DNA from: Vulcanisaeta moutnovskia 768-28
Lineage (GTDB): Archaea; Thermoproteota; Thermoprotei; Thermoproteales; Thermocladiaceae
Length of the DNA stretch: 64,000 nt
Direction of reading: 5' to 3'
NCBI RefSeq assembly: GCF_000190315.1
Contig: NC_015151.1
Coordinates: 1,922,001 to 1,986,000, forward strand
The translations under genes were made by a program, and so were the position numbers. This document shows positions 13,739-18,716 of the stretch, in pieces; the first letter of the stretch is position 1; the number at the start of each line of letters is the position of its first letter. Below the pieces are notes generated by a model. The model ran no database searches. It was given only the letters and a program-made list of their open reading frames with translations, and had not been told where the DNA came from.

Positions 13739-13789
13739 ATATCCCTAAAATTCGAAGAAACCTTTATTAATTTAATAATTGACGTTTTG

Positions 13790-14725
13790 GTGGGTCTCTT
13801 GTCCTGGTTTAATCGGGATGTCATAAGCGTGCTGGATTTCGGTAGGGAGGATTTTGAGGTCTTGCTTTCCGAGACTTTGAACATGGAGAAGTATGCTAAG
13901 TCAAAACTTGATATTCTTGGTGATAAGGTCCTTGCCCTGGCATTCTTTGAGCCCAGCACTAGGACTAGGCTTAGCTTTGAGACTGCCATGCTCAGGCTTG
14001 GTGGTAAGGTGATTGGTTTCAGTGGTACTGAGGCTACATCAATGGTTAAGGGCGAGAACTTAGCTGATACCATTAGGATGCTTGACGCGTATGCCAACGC
14101 CATAGTTATTAGGCATAGCCTTGAGGGAACCGCTAAATTCGCAGCTGAGATTGCTGGGTCACCGGTGATTAATGCAGGTGATGGCTCGCAGAATCACCCG
14201 ACACAAGCAATGCTTGATCTGTACACGATTTGGCGGGAGTTTAAGGTTATTGATGGCCTATCGATCGGCATACTTGGTGACCTTAGGTATGCCAGGGTAG
14301 TTAATTCATTAATCCAAGCCCTGTCCTACTACAGGATTAAGCTTCACTTAATATCGCCAGAGCTACTCAAGCCTAGGCAGGAACTCATTGAATTCATGAA
14401 ATCAAGGGATATGAAGTATGATTGGACTGATGATCCATACAACGTGATTAATGACTTGGACGTGCTTTATATCGTTAGGATTCAGAGGGAGAGGTTTCCT
14501 GATCCAATGGAGTATGAGAGGGTTAAGGGCACGTATAAGGTCATGCCTAAGTTGATTGAGAGGAGTAAGCCAAGCCTAATAATACTTCATCCACTTCCAA
14601 GAGTTGATGAGGTCGACTTCACTGTGGATAGCATGCCACAAGCCAAGTACTTTAAGCAGGCTGGTTTAGGTGTGCCATTACGCATGGCCTTGCTTAAGTT
14701 AGTCCTTGCTGGTGATAAGTCATGA
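13790..14725 (+). CDS. pyrB: aspartate carbamoyltransferase catalytic subunit
   Basis: The carbamoyl-phosphate site FFEPSTRTR, the HPTQAMLDL motif and LHPLPR are all present. The enzyme joins carbamoyl phosphate and aspartate, the first committed step of pyrimidine synthesis. Starts at TTG 13787 and GTG 13790 are possible; GTG 13790 sits about 24 bases after a TATA-like element at 13762-13771. It is the first gene of an operon with pyrI, pyrE and pyrD. Its stop overlaps the pyrI start by 4 bases. Confidence 0.95.
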
Positions 14726-15201
14726 GTAGTAAGAGCGAGTTAATAATTAGTAAGATAAGGAATGGTGTTGTGATTGATCATATACCAGCGGGTAGGGCAT
14801 TGCTCGTGCTTAGGTTATTGGGTATAAGTGGTCGTGAAGGATTTAGGGTGGCTCTTGTTATGAATGTGGAGAGTAGGAAGTTAGGTACTAAGGATATTGT
14901 TAAGATAGAGGATAAGGAATTGACCAAGGATGAACTTAATCTAGTGGCTCTTGTTGCGCCTACGGCTACGGTGAACATAATCAGGGATTACGAGGTTATT
15001 AGTAAGTTCAAGGTATCAATACCAGACGTGATAGAGGGATTATTGAAATGCAAGAACCCGAGGTGTATTACTAATCAGCAGAGGGAGCCCGTGAGGAATA
15101 GATTCCGTGTGATATCCAGGGAACCACTCAAGTTAGTATGTGAGTACTGCGGGACAATACATGAACTCAGCGATATTGAGAAGTACTTTGGACTTGCGTG
15201 A
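14722..15201 (+). CDS. pyrI: aspartate carbamoyltransferase regulatory subunit
   Basis: This 159-residue protein has the N-terminal allosteric nucleotide-binding domain and the C-terminal zinc domain with C110, C115, C140 and C143. It binds CTP and ATP and holds the PyrB trimers together. The ATG overlaps the pyrB stop codon, showing translational coupling. Confidence 0.95.
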
Positions 15202-15205
15202 TACC

Positions 15206-15817
15206 ATGCTTAATGAGGAATTAATAATTGACTTATATAGGGTTGGGGCAATAAAATTCGGGAGGTTTAAATTAACGAGCGGTATTGAGAGCCCATTCTA
15301 TATTGACCTGAGACTAGCAATAACGTACCCAGGTATTTATAAGCGATTAGTTAAGTTAATGGCTGAATCATTATCTGCGTTTAACATCGATGTTGTAACG
15401 GGCATAGAGACAGCCAGTATTCCGTGGGCATCAATGATAGCATACGAACTAAATAAGGGCATAGTATACGTTAGGAAGGAAGTCAAGGAACACGGTACAG
15501 CTAAACTGATTGAGGGCGATTTAAAAACAGGTATGAGGGTTGCGGTAATCGATGATGTAATAACCACGGGTAACTCAATAATAAGGGCCATTAGGATTGT
15601 TAGGGATCATGGTGGTGATGTTGTTGTGGCCGCGGTATTCATTGATAGGGAACAAGGTGGACTTAATGCTATAAGGAGGGAGGGCATTAATGCGTTTGCA
15701 TTATTTAGTGTTATTGATATGATTGATGTACTCGTTAATAATGGATTAGTAAGCAATGAATTACGTAACTCAGTGATTGAGTACTTGGTGAAGAATCGTG
15801 TTAGCACAGGTGCTTAA
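15206..15817 (+). CDS. pyrE: orotate phosphoribosyltransferase
   Basis: The PRPP-binding motif AVIDDVITTGNS is present, with the N-terminal KFGRFKLTSGIESPFYIDLR substrate region typical of PyrE. It makes orotidine monophosphate from orotate. ATG 15206, 4 bases after the pyrI stop, is preferred to an upstream start that would overlap pyrI by about 60 bases. The 3' end overlaps pyrD by 20 bases. Confidence 0.93.
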   Translation: MLNEELIIDLYRVGAIKFGRFKLTSGIESPFYIDLRLAITYPGIYKRLVKLMAESLSAFNIDVVTGIETASIPWASMIAYELNKGIVYVRKEVKEHGTAKLIEGDLKTGMRVAVIDDVITTGNSIIRAIRIVRDHGGDVVVAAVFIDREQGGLNAIRREGINAFALFSVIDMIDVLVNNGLVSNELRNSVIEYLVKNRVSTGA

Positions 15818-16790
15818 ATTACTTAATTACTTACCTCCTGAGTTTACCTATGAGTCATCTCATGTACTTATTAGAAGTGGTATTATTAATTACCGTGGTT
15901 ACGGCATTGAAATGCCCGTTGAAATTAGTGATAAATTAGTCAAGAATCCAATAGGGCTTGGTGCAGGTATTGATAAGGATGGGTTCCTAACACCGCGAAT
16001 TGTACGGACAGGCATTGGGTTCATAACTATCGGTTCAGTAACGCTTAAACCACGTCCTGGTAATCCCAAGCCTCGCATTGTTAAGTATCCTAGTTTGAGG
16101 GCCATGGTTAATGCCATGGGTTTATCATCAAGAGGTTTCGCGGATTTCCTGGGCAGGTTACCTAGCATACTTCGTGAGGTGCGTGATTTCAATACTTACG
16201 TTATCATTAGCTTAGCGGGCTTCTCAATTAGCGAGTTCATTTATATGCTTAATAGATTGAGGGGTTATGGTGTGGATGCCGTGGAGTTGAATATAAGTAG
16301 TCCCACATATCGTGGTTCATGGGTATCAGATAGAGATTACTTAGGTGAACTACTTAGGTATGCTGAGTCCTTTTCAGGGACATTATTCGTTAAGTTACCT
16401 CTTGGTGTTGATATTGATTTCTATAGGTGGATAACAAACACTGTCAATAAGCGTGGATTTGGACTAACAATAGCGAATACCCTACCAGTCAAGGAATCCA
16501 GGATATCTGTTGGTTATGGTGGGTTAAGTGGATACCCAATATACCCGATCATTAGGTCATTAGTTAGTAAGGTCAGAAAGTGGGGTTTTAGAAACCTAAT
16601 TATTGGGCTTGGTGGTGTCCTCTATGGTTGGCAGGTAATTGATTTAATAAGGAGTGGTGCGAATTTGGTTGGTGTAGTTACGGCATTCGCCTATGAGGGT
16701 CCCTTCGCATTTAATAGGTTGTTTAAAGAGATATTGATGAAACTGAGTGAAAAGGCTTTAAATAATTATTTAGTCAACACGTGTCGATGA
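15798..16790 (+). CDS. pyrD: dihydroorotate dehydrogenase, class 2-like
   Basis: This 330-residue protein has the FMN-barrel motifs GLGAGIDKDG, TIGSVTLKPRPGNPKPR and ELNISSPT, which match the class 2 (quinone-linked, membrane-associated) enzymes better than class 1B. Class 2 enzymes use a catalytic serine within the Asn-x-Ser-Ser-Pro motif. It oxidises dihydroorotate to orotate. No pyrK electron-transfer subunit is nearby, which also fits class 2. The GTG start overlaps pyrE by 20 bases. Confidence 0.88.
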   Translation: MLAQVLKLLNYLPPEFTYESSHVLIRSGIINYRGYGIEMPVEISDKLVKNPIGLGAGIDKDGFLTPRIVRTGIGFITIGSVTLKPRPGNPKPRIVKYPSLRAMVNAMGLSSRGFADFLGRLPSILREVRDFNTYVIISLAGFSISEFIYMLNRLRGYGVDAVELNISSPTYRGSWVSDRDYLGELLRYAESFSGTLFVKLPLGVDIDFYRWITNTVNKRGFGLTIANTLPVKESRISVGYGGLSGYPIYPIIRSLVSKVRKWGFRNLIIGLGGVLYGWQVIDLIRSGANLVGVVTAFAYEGPFAFNRLFKEILMKLSEKALNNYLVNTCR

Positions 16791-17422
16791 ATCTTAATTA
16801 TTGGGGTAGTGGTGGTTATGGAGTACCGTTTAGGCCCTATAGGCATGAAATTAGGGATATTGTGATTTCCCTCATTGCTATGACCATAGCCTTCGCTCTA
16901 CTCTTTAATACACTATTAAGCCTGGGCGGTTTAATAGCAACATTCATTGCAGTGCTAACTGGTTTCCTTGGTCATGAATTAATGCATAGGGAGGAGGCCA
17001 GGAGGTTGGGTTACATAGCCTATTTCAGGGCTTGGTGGATTGGGCTTCTACTTGCATTAGCGACCTCCTTCTTTCACTTCATTATAGCCCTGCCTGGGGC
17101 TACGGTAATTGGACCCAAAGTGTGGGGTTATCCATCACGAAGGGATGAGTTGAAGATAGCCCTTGCTGGTCCAGCAACTAATATGGTGTTTGCCGTGGTG
17201 TTCCTGGCTCTTTGGTTGGTGCTGCCGAGTTCATTATCCGCCTATGCATACCTAATTTATGCCACCAATGCGTGGCTTGGTTTCTTTAACTTAATACCAC
17301 TTGCCTTACCTGGTATGATGCTTGATGGCTTTAGGGTATTCAGGAGGGACATTAGGATATGGGCCCTTGCATTCGTTATATCGATCGCATTGATAGTGCC
17401 ATACATACTAAGCTTCATTTAA
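16787..17422 (+). CDS. membrane-embedded M50 (site-2-type) metalloprotease
   Basis: The polytopic protein has the zinc motif HELMH at residues 63-67 in a membrane helix and a second motif in the C-terminal part, NLIPLALPGMMLDG, where the Asp is the third zinc ligand. Both are hallmarks of the site-2 protease family, which cuts membrane-bound substrates. ATG 16787 overlaps the pyrD stop, so it is translated with the pyrimidine operon even though no direct link to that pathway is known. Confidence 0.85.
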   Translation: MNLNYWGSGGYGVPFRPYRHEIRDIVISLIAMTIAFALLFNTLLSLGGLIATFIAVLTGFLGHELMHREEARRLGYIAYFRAWWIGLLLALATSFFHFIIALPGATVIGPKVWGYPSRRDELKIALAGPATNMVFAVVFLALWLVLPSSLSAYAYLIYATNAWLGFFNLIPLALPGMMLDGFRVFRRDIRIWALAFVISIALIVPYILSFI

Positions 17423-17468
17423 TCAATGCGGTTAAGAATTATAACTTAGTTACGCATTTAGTACTGCC

Positions 17469-18716
17469 GTGAAATTTAATTACGAGGTGATTAATGAGGA
17501 TTCCAACATAGCCATTGTAACACTATGGAGCAGTATTAACCAGGTTAAGGAATTACTAAGGGATTCAATAAGGTTCGTTAGTATTATTGGCAATTTATAT
17601 ACGCCGGTCGGTATTAACTACATGATAACTACCTTGGCTAGGATTAACTGGATTGATACATTGATAATGTTTGGTCTTGACTATAATGGTGTTGGCGACT
17701 TATTAATTCGTTTTTTCAGGGATGGCGCATTGGACGTATTACTTGTAGGTAAAGACATTGCAGATAGTGTTAGGTCTACAATAAAAGTGATAGACCTTAG
17801 GGAGGCATTTAAGGCACGTAATACGGATGCGTTAATAAGGGTCATTCACGAGAATTATAGGCCTGGGCGTAAACCCGTTAGGTCATTAATAAACACAGAT
17901 ATCAATGAGCAAGAGTATGGTAGTGGTTGGGCATTACCATTAGTCGGTGGATTCGTATATGAGAGGGATACCTATAGGTCCTGGGTTAAGCTTGTCGACT
18001 TAGTGCTTAATTACGGTTTTGATAAGGGTGATTATAGGGAGTTAATAACGCCATTAGTGGTCATAGACTCAATGGGTAAGCCACACCCATTTAGAAGGCT
18101 TAGTGAGGTTGGGCTTAGGGACTTTGAACCACCTGCTGAGTTGGTTAATACATTGATTAACGAGTTGAGGGTTAACCCATACTCAATGGGCGCTGTTTAT
18201 TACGGCGGTGATTACTTGGTTCAGGGAGTCATAAGTAGTGATTACTATAATCAACTAGTCTATATAAAAAGTGTCGATGTATTTAATGATTGGTGTAGGC
18301 AGTTGTATAGATGGTGGTCGCTGGCGAAGAGGGTTGTTGAAACCATAAATAGGGAGTTCAATGCATGGTACAGCGTGGGTTCTATGGCGTTAGTGCCATT
18401 CTCAGCCAGGATATACGCCAAGGATCTTGACAGGGCTGAGGAGTTCGTGAGGAGGAACTCAAGCGTCTTTAGTGAGTTCGTGGAGGATCCGAGGGGCAAT
18501 TTCCTAGTGATGAGGGAGGGTGATTCCGTGGTTGTTGAGCATAGGTTACCTATCACAAATGCCCTGCATAGGAGATTTTCATTTCGCTCCCTTGAGGAGG
18601 CATACAATGCACTAAAGAATAGTAACCACTTTACAAACTACGCACATGCCATGTACCTTGGTAAGGAATTAGCGAGGGCATTCCTACTTAGGGATTACGA
18701 GCAAGATAAATTATGA
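17469..18716 (+). CDS. archaeal thymidylate-synthase-like protein with MtrA-like N-terminal domain
   Basis: Residues about 1-100 resemble the small-domain pattern of MtrA-type proteins (IAIVTLWSSINQVKELL). The C-terminal half has NPYSMGAVYYGGDYLVQGV and a region ending in HAMYLGKELARAF, reminiscent of archaeal thymidylate-synthase-related proteins (DUF4346-type). The cysteine in NDWCRQ is not in a canonical ThyA active-site context, so activity is unproven. It starts at GTG 17469, 46 bases after the pyrimidine-operon protease, a position that supports a pyrimidine role. Confidence 0.45.
   Translation: MKFNYEVINEDSNIAIVTLWSSINQVKELLRDSIRFVSIIGNLYTPVGINYMITTLARINWIDTLIMFGLDYNGVGDLLIRFFRDGALDVLLVGKDIADSVRSTIKVIDLREAFKARNTDALIRVIHENYRPGRKPVRSLINTDINEQEYGSGWALPLVGGFVYERDTYRSWVKLVDLVLNYGFDKGDYRELITPLVVIDSMGKPHPFRRLSEVGLRDFEPPAELVNTLINELRVNPYSMGAVYYGGDYLVQGVISSDYYNQLVYIKSVDVFNDWCRQLYRWWSLAKRVVETINREFNAWYSVGSMALVPFSARIYAKDLDRAEEFVRRNSSVFSEFVEDPRGNFLVMREGDSVVVEHRLPITNALHRRFSFRSLEEAYNALKNSNHFTNYAHAMYLGKELARAFLLRDYEQDKL

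Follow-up and report, generated by a model that had tools for sequence, protein, structure and literature searches.

A catalytically degenerate thymidylate synthase core between MtrA-like and DUF4346 domains in Vulcanisaeta

Behind the pyrimidine genes of the archaeon Vulcanisaeta moutnovskia 768-28 lies an open reading frame (ORF) whose product resembles a thymidylate synthase (TS) in part, and the question is whether it makes dTMP and, if not, what it is kept for. Thymidylate synthesis is essential, and ThyA and ThyX are, to our knowledge, the sole enzymes described for free dTMP. The locus lies in the window analysed here, a stretch of 64,000 nucleotides (NC_015151.1, positions 1,922,001 to 1,986,000). 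A preliminary description of it, made from the sequence alone, had proposed an MtrA-type N-terminus, a ThyA-like C-terminal half and an unrecognised route to dTMP. The reading preferred here, with a probability of roughly 55%, is that the protein is the dead descendant of a three-domain thymidylate synthase and that its MtrA-DUF4346 cofactor-handling unit outlived the synthase after ThyX took over.

The protein has three parts: an MtrA fold, a ThyA fold and a C-terminal PF14251 domain (Table 1). The last, PterinBD-DUF4346, is its sole Pfam match above cut-off (E 4.5e-14, 53.4 bits against a cut-off of 29.6), and NCBIfam adds a sub-threshold MtrA match at residues 4-71. The archaeal ThyA profile TIGR03283 gives no match up to E 1 (a congener reaches 13.5 bits), and a phmmer search of the PDB with the window protein returns just weak matches to PotF, which are superseded by the family profile and the structure. 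Against the PDB, a Vulcanisaeta-only profile matches neither TS nor MtrA up to E 5; the family profile (alignment A4) matches both, ThyA at 6.5e-21 and MtrA (5laa) at 7.5e-15. The window protein was modelled with AlphaFold2 (alignment A3, 30 rows; pLDDT 89.8, pTM 0.75), and the model was compared with known structures by VIA-align. Its N-terminal domain superposes on MtrA 5l8x_A with rmsd 2.3 over 139 aa, and residues 166-333 superpose on TS 4dq1_B (Z 15.6, rmsd 2.1, 159 aa); among TS-fold proteins the highest score, Z 16.7, goes to the dCMP hydroxylase AfhB (9iqu, residues 158-328). The MtrA-like N-terminus of the preliminary description is thus confirmed. Of its ThyA-like C-terminal half, the fold stands and the position does not, as the TS fold forms the middle and DUF4346 closes the protein.

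Table 1. Features of the window locus and positions of two-domain genes elsewhere
Feature	Position	Strand	Basis or remark
415-aa ORF, MtrA-like / TS-like / DUF4346, TS core decayed	17469..18716	+	GTG start
MtrA-like Rossmann domain, residues 1-146	17469..17906	+	predicted structure, Z 17.4 to 5l8x_A; residue table
Thymidylate-synthase-fold domain, residues 158-333, catalytically degenerate	17940..18467	+	structure alignment, residue table
Site of the TRRA...PPC segment with Cys146 in intact relatives; missing here, residues about 241-249	18189..18215	+	alignments
K267-S268-V269-D270, remnant of the ThyA RSxD motif (R166, S167, D169)	18267..18278	+	alignments
Q278, position of ThyA Asn177	18300..18302	+	residue table
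R314, position of ThyA His207	18408..18410	+	residue table
PF14251 PterinBD-DUF4346 domain, residues 339-411	18483..18701	+	Pfam
pyrB, pyrI, pyrE, pyrD, then M50 protease gene; upstream neighbours, context only	13787..17422	+	Pfam, synteny
Two-domain MtrA-ThyA genes	L204:6853-8127, L206:7584-9167, L207:299-1600, L208:14997-16229, L209:4517-5725		

By its domain order and flank residues, the window protein is a member of a three-domain MtrA-ThyA-DUF4346 family. In the MtrA-like domain S12, N13, W20, G69, D71, G76, D109 and R111, and in the DUF4346 domain D340, G343, H393, E400, Y410 and Q412, are unchanged in all decayed rows tabulated. The N-terminus shares its Rossmann-type fold with MtrA (PF04208), the corrinoid subunit of methyl-H4MPT:coenzyme M methyltransferase. 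MtrA of methanogens carries a methyl-corrinoid, with His84 and Glu54 holding the cobalt (accessible text of PMC4915002). Neither the cobalt-ligating His84 nor its partner Glu54 has an equivalent in the window protein or in the other three-domain rows compared, which is why the idea that the MtrA domain of the window protein binds a corrinoid was dropped.

The TS core lacks equivalents of Cys146, Arg126/127, His207 and Asn177. In all nine Vulcanisaeta rows the Tyr94-Gly and Cys146 segments are missing, the His207 position holds Arg (8) or Trp (1), and the Asn177 position holds Gln (6), Glu (1) or Asn (2). The R/K-S-x-D motif is retained in 9/9 rows, and W275, C276 and R277 are genus-wide invariants of the core which, going by their conservation, could reflect a new activity. 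The single-contig genome (2,298,983 bp) encodes a ThyX at C1:80493-81047 (PF02511, E 3.3e-44; TIGR02170 99.5 bits, above cut-off; RHRxxS motif present), and PF00303 (ThyA) has no match in it at E 10. With the catalytic-Cys segment missing, His207 and Asn177 replaced and ThyX in the genome, the window protein is not a working ThyA; it is almost certainly a catalytically dead synthase. The preliminary description had named, as jointly fatal to its dTMP route, a ThyX or ThyA elsewhere in the genome and a lack of similarity to ThyA: a ThyX is there, and so is the ThyA fold. For the window protein the route is nevertheless not supported, given the ThyX and the absent residues.

All three parts of the protein are under purifying selection. 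In every domain of the calculable pairs dN/dS is 0.02-0.23, with many dS values near saturation, and it is lowest in DUF4346 in every pair where it is computable. The family is matched in 12/12 genomes of the genus, split over reading frames in two of them (G055 and G057). The place behind pyrBIED, correctly seen in the preliminary description, is kept in 8/8 Vulcanisaeta loci that reach far enough upstream; no pyr gene was matched in the compared non-Vulcanisaeta loci, whose flanks are of limited length. Since the pyr neighbourhood is seen in Vulcanisaeta alone, it says little about the three-domain family, and a pyr-operon role for the whole family was set aside. A TATA-like stretch noticed by eye at 17440-17445, which puts it 24-29 bases ahead of the GTG start, would suit a separate, leaderless transcript of the gene. 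A link to a defence system was also dropped, PADLOC having given no match.

The family extends well beyond Vulcanisaeta. A GTDB scan matched 37 loci, which include Thermofilaceae, one Brockarchaeota genome, Aenigmarchaeota, Woesearchaeota, Nanopusillus/Nanobsidianus and Vulcanisaeta, together with Anaerovirgula multivorans (where the contig ends before DUF4346) and one Nealsonbacteria genome, whose phylum we take to be Patescibacteria/CPR. Among the 37, L150 has DUF4346 alone in common with the others; it is a TIGR00284 protein and not a family member. Matches within the CPR phylum come from 14 of 286 genomes, among them the query genome with its split form; the remaining 13 comprise 11 full fused ORFs of 477-550 aa and two in halves at contig ends. 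The three-domain family ranges over Thermofilaceae, Brockarchaeota, DPANN archaea, CPR bacteria and two viral contigs. Its Brockarchaeota protein (L050, identical to L115) shows all three parts in Pfam, MtrA at 9-171 (1.4e-19), thymidylate synthase at 278-431 (4.8e-19) and DUF4346 at 419-497 (8e-26), and the TS part of its model reaches Z 20.5-25.0 to TS-fold chains among the matches listed. Of six intact three-domain relatives scanned, PF04208 is above cut-off in L050 and L182 and not in L017, L014, L093 and L185; L093 has no PF14251 match in Pfam either. For intact relatives short of all three Pfam matches, domains were assigned from the family alignment. TIGR03283 scores of 13 intact relatives run from 103 to 185 bits, two of them passing the cut-off of 174.55 bits.

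The catalytic residues are largely in place in these relatives. All 41 intact rows keep Cys146, Arg166, Asp169, Asn177, Tyr209 and the Tyr94-Gly equivalents; His207 is present in 37 (Glu in four CPR rows), Ser167 in 36, and eight CPR rows have G (six) or K (two) in place of Arg127. The changes at His207 and Arg127 in CPR rows suggest that some CPR forms may be specialised. Going by its residues, the ThyA core of the intact relatives very probably makes dTMP from dUMP. Of 26 genomes whose TS is intact (fused in 25, split in one), five have ThyX and five a second PF00303 gene; 17 of them, of unstated completeness, show neither. The intact fusion is the only recognisable dTMP-making enzyme found in a number of other archaea. 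No ThyX was matched in the 13 CPR genomes carrying family matches. ThyX and an intact fusion occur together in 5/26 genomes, so exclusion is not strict.

The neighbours of the intact copies are suggestive as well. In L183 and at the split CPR locus L144, the gene immediately upstream encodes a dCTP deaminase (Pfam). Genes of the dCMP-deaminase type adjoin L184, L185, L189, L192 and L178 (the first two by Pfam, the rest by BLAST only), and lie 0.7 kb off in L191 (BLAST only), 1.4 kb in L182 (Pfam), 4.5 kb in L188 (BLAST only) and within about 1.3 kb in 3/3 Woesearchaeota loci (BLAST only). No deaminase gene was found at L186, L187, L190 or the end-of-contig locus L194, and no dCTP/dCMP-deaminase-type gene was matched in Thermofilum or Vulcanisaeta loci. 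The idea of an overlooked dTMP route thus holds better for the intact relatives than for the window protein: they keep most residues, the fused copy is the sole ThyA/ThyX match in 16 of the 25 genomes that have one, and deaminase neighbours occur in several lineages. The ThyA core here stands between two domains known elsewhere from enzymes of methyl-corrinoids and pterins, and some DPANN genomes of very small size yielded no other gene of the kind; this points to a gap in the understanding of how lineages with an embedded ThyA handle the cofactor in dTMP synthesis. Three loci hold related genes nearby. At L120:1716-5049 the intact fusion is followed by a bacterial-type ThyA and then by a DHFR gene; at L182:3779-5221 a dCMP-deaminase-type gene and then a second TS-like ORF lie near the CPR fusion gene; and at L187 the CPR fusion has a RibD_C/DHFR-like gene a few genes away.

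The synthase core has been lost more than once. In the window's class the family is present in 48 of 81 genomes; two of these, G006 and G014, hold just fragments and do not enter the counts that follow. Twenty have an intact TS core, 17 of them Thermofilum-like (families f14 and f10) and the others G007, G079 and G080; catalytic residues were inspected in 19, with G007 left out. Decayed copies occur in 26 genomes, 12 of the window's genus, nine of g6 and five of g7, the latter two presumably Pyrobaculum and Thermoproteus; residues were tabulated for 22 of the 26. ThyX was found in 24 of the 26, partly as partial matches, and had no match in G060 (87% complete) and G073. Among the 20 intact-core genomes it was found in two, in G080 by search and in G079 next to the fusion, in the form of a fragment at a contig end. 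Because the groups amount to few clades, no probability is attached to the association of ThyX with decay, and a Fisher test (1.1e-8) was set aside because the genomes are related. In a tree of the MtrA and DUF4346 columns (63 rows, quick method, a single intact g8 row), Vulcanisaeta (SH-aLRT 100) stands apart from a clade of g6, g7 and the intact g8 (SH-aLRT 100). Grouping the decayed rows as one clade is rejected (log-likelihood 66.6 lower, p-AU 0.000629), a test made with one intact g8 row in the tree and in which long branches and composition could matter. For joint against separate decay of g6 and g7, p-AU is 0.585. The TS core has decayed independently at least twice.

What remained after the decay is similar throughout. 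At 14 of 16 tabulated MtrA/DUF4346 positions, chosen as invariant from alignments that already held Vulcanisaeta rows, the same residue is found in 22/22 decayed rows; in L115 numbering these are S26, N27, W34, G80, D82, G87, D131, R133, D420, G423, H473, E480, Y494 and Q496. The remaining two, G59 and E437, change in g6, and E437 in g7 too. CPR rows vary at several of the 14 (N27 is kept in 2/10, H473 and E480 in 4/10). The g6 forms have lost nearly the entire TS core and total about 300 aa; in g7 the Cys column is still Cys in 4/4 rows, with other residues gone. The fixation of the flank positions indicates that the MtrA/DUF4346 pair probably has a function of its own, and a flank site that has stayed conserved through two losses of the synthase probably has another use. 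Repeated loss of the TS core beside persisting flanks amounts to a natural experiment that isolates a conserved MtrA-DUF4346 module. The module has no copy in 13 of the 25 genomes of the window's family and is thus dispensable there. In genus g8 the intact fusion lies near ThyX, possibly a snapshot of the replacement at a transition stage. At L094:5222-7119 in G080, the intact fusion (C-terminal 283 aa, contig end) and ThyX are separated by one 99-aa ORF.

Other MtrA-ThyA ARRANGEMENTS take a split form and a two-domain form. The split form is found in a CPR genome (G348, L144:7369-10322), where a dCTP deaminase gene (dcd), an MtrA-DUF4346 gene, a stand-alone thyA and deoC lie together. Its MtrA-DUF4346 protein has 294 aa, keeps His84 and the TEN motif, and matches MtrA 5laa at E 7.3e-38. 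Two-domain MtrA-ThyA proteins occur in G037, G046 (the window's own family), G008 and G009; MtrA is N-terminal to the ThyA core as in the three-domain family, and DUF4346 has no match in them. All five distinct two-domain proteins have Cys146, Arg166, Ser167, Asp169, Asn177, His207 and Tyr209. An equivalent of the cobalt-ligating His84 is present in four, the exception L207 having Tyr; L204, L206 and L207 carry another residue in place of Glu54, a position not clearly aligned in the other two. ThyX was not matched in any of the four genomes, and G008 and G009 have another PF00303 gene. In G037 the same ORFs occur at two places, oppositely oriented, and a third gene lies in a mobile-looking region that contains a resolvase.

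These arrangements and the known relatives of the single domains suggest what the flanks may do. DUF4346 sits on DHPS-like TIGR00284 proteins, MtrA carries a methyl-corrinoid, and the unit without its TS lies beside a TS gene in the split CPR locus; together these point to one cofactor-handling unit. That the MtrA-DUF4346 unit would handle a cofactor is, by this analogy, an even call, and the putative pterin binding of the PF14251 domain rests on Pfam's label 'PterinBD'. In the preferred reading, the MtrA-like and DUF4346 domains of intact relatives would form this unit around the ThyA core, where it may bind or present a reduced pterin or another C1 donor, or protect the product. In Vulcanisaeta, dTMP would now come from ThyX, and the TS core, having lost its catalytic residues, would be selected as a scaffold. 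The unit may still bind or pass a reduced pterin or C1 cofactor, for ThyX or for another enzyme. What we infer is which ligand the surviving unit has and what it does biochemically, and that ThyX caused the decay.

Several known systems come close without matching. The window protein and its intact relatives share the fold of archaeal-type ThyA (PF00303, TIGR03283), but in the three-domain family the TS is embedded between MtrA-like and DUF4346 domains, and the window copy is without the catalytic residues. TIGR00284, the dihydropteroate-synthase-like protein, has a C-terminal DUF4346 in common, but its main part (L061, L150) is DHPS-like and neither MtrA nor ThyA, which makes it a different family. 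ThyX, the flavin-dependent thymidylate synthase, has a fold unrelated to that of ThyA-type proteins; it would share the cellular product and is a separate gene in the window's genome. In the DHFR-TS fusions of protists, the domain joined to the TS serves the folate cofactor of the synthase. DHFR-TS chains occur among the structure-match lists, but DHFR is unrelated to MtrA or DUF4346. A 2018 review counts ThyX in 20 and ThyA in two of 21 Crenarchaeota and, in its accessible text, mentions no such domains (PMC5954106). A folate-dependent ThyA has been credited to Nanoarchaeote Nst1, again with no mention of the fusion in the accessible text (Podar et al. 2013, PMC3655853); the family locus L131 is that of Nanobsidianus stetteri Nst1. 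In the open-access literature searched, a scope that leaves aside subscription papers and preprints, no description of the fusion was seen, and no paper was found on DUF4346 or on a thymidylate synthase with an MtrA-like domain. ThyA, MtrA and DUF4346 are known families; their fusion, within that literature, appears undescribed.

Other readings of the window protein have to be weighed against a surviving flank unit. The TS-fold core may have been re-purposed to bind a nucleotide or pterin and catalyse another reaction, like the TS-fold hydroxymethylases or flavin-dependent hydroxylases. Purifying selection on the core, the R/K-S-x-D motif, the invariants W275, C276 and R277 and the higher Z score of AfhB (16.7 against 15.6 for the best TS) argue for this; the phosphate-binding positions Arg126/Arg127, Cys146, His207 and mostly Asn177 are gone, however, and g6 has lost nearly all of the core with the flanks remaining, which places the shared selected function in the flanks. 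Re-purposing is therefore rather unlikely, though it deserves to be kept in mind. Pseudoenzymes often turn into regulators, and one that senses a ligand and so signals the level of dUMP, dTMP or pterin to pyrimidine synthesis would explain the conserved place behind pyrBIED. Such a role is improbable, as no pyr gene was matched at the non-Vulcanisaeta loci compared, within their limited flanks, and neither a DNA-binding nor a signalling domain was found in the window protein by Pfam or NCBIfam. An active, if unusual, dTMP synthase, as proposed in the preliminary description, would agree with the TS fold and with the seemingly active intact relatives, but the absence of the catalytic Cys, His207 and Arg126/127 and the presence of ThyX make it very hard to credit. 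A decaying relic without function has as little to recommend it: the shortened TS core and the frame-split matches in G055 and G057 would fit, but the low dN/dS in every domain of the calculable pairs and the match in every genome of the genus speak against it.

A bolder reading concerns the reason why MtrA and ThyA are linked. A corrinoid- or pterin-loaded MtrA domain might hand a methyl or C1 group directly to C5 of Cys-activated dUMP, giving dTMP without dihydrofolate and without DHFR; we regard such a transfer as a long shot. MtrA and ThyA are linked in three gene arrangements, His84 is kept in most two-domain fusions and in the split CPR module, and PF00186 (DHFR), the sole reductase profile searched, is found in 0/81 genomes of the window's class, the same search being positive in 9/14 controls. 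Against it stand the replacement of Glu54 in three of the five two-domain fusions, the absence of His84 from the three-domain rows and the failure to find MtrH where it was searched: PF02007 has no match in the window's genome (the same search found it in 2/14 control genomes), and none was recognised by eye in the ORF lists near the two-domain fusions. Under such direct transfer the three-domain family would be, with equally slender chances, a derived His-independent form with DUF4346 as an added cofactor lid, and the Vulcanisaeta protein might, at odds no better, be the donor-handling half that survived after ThyX replaced the synthase. If true, it would be a further biochemical route to dTMP.

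Some of these genes lie on elements that look mobile or viral. The third gene of G037 (L206, G037:C8:59000-77000) lies with a serine resolvase, a PD-(D/E)XK nuclease, a helicase and many ORFs without a Pfam match. Queried with the L206 protein, INPHARED phage records return just the TS parts of phage proteins among the matches listed; queried with the viral three-domain protein, they return one phage TS. Viral scans with the three-domain alignment and with the L206 protein gave no match, and an IMG/VR scan with the two-domain alignment matched three contigs; in two of these a three-domain protein with TS motifs is encoded. These two proteins (L212:1994-3397 and L211:60-1463) are near-identical, and their gene adjoins a very long ORF that looks, by eye, like a tail protein.
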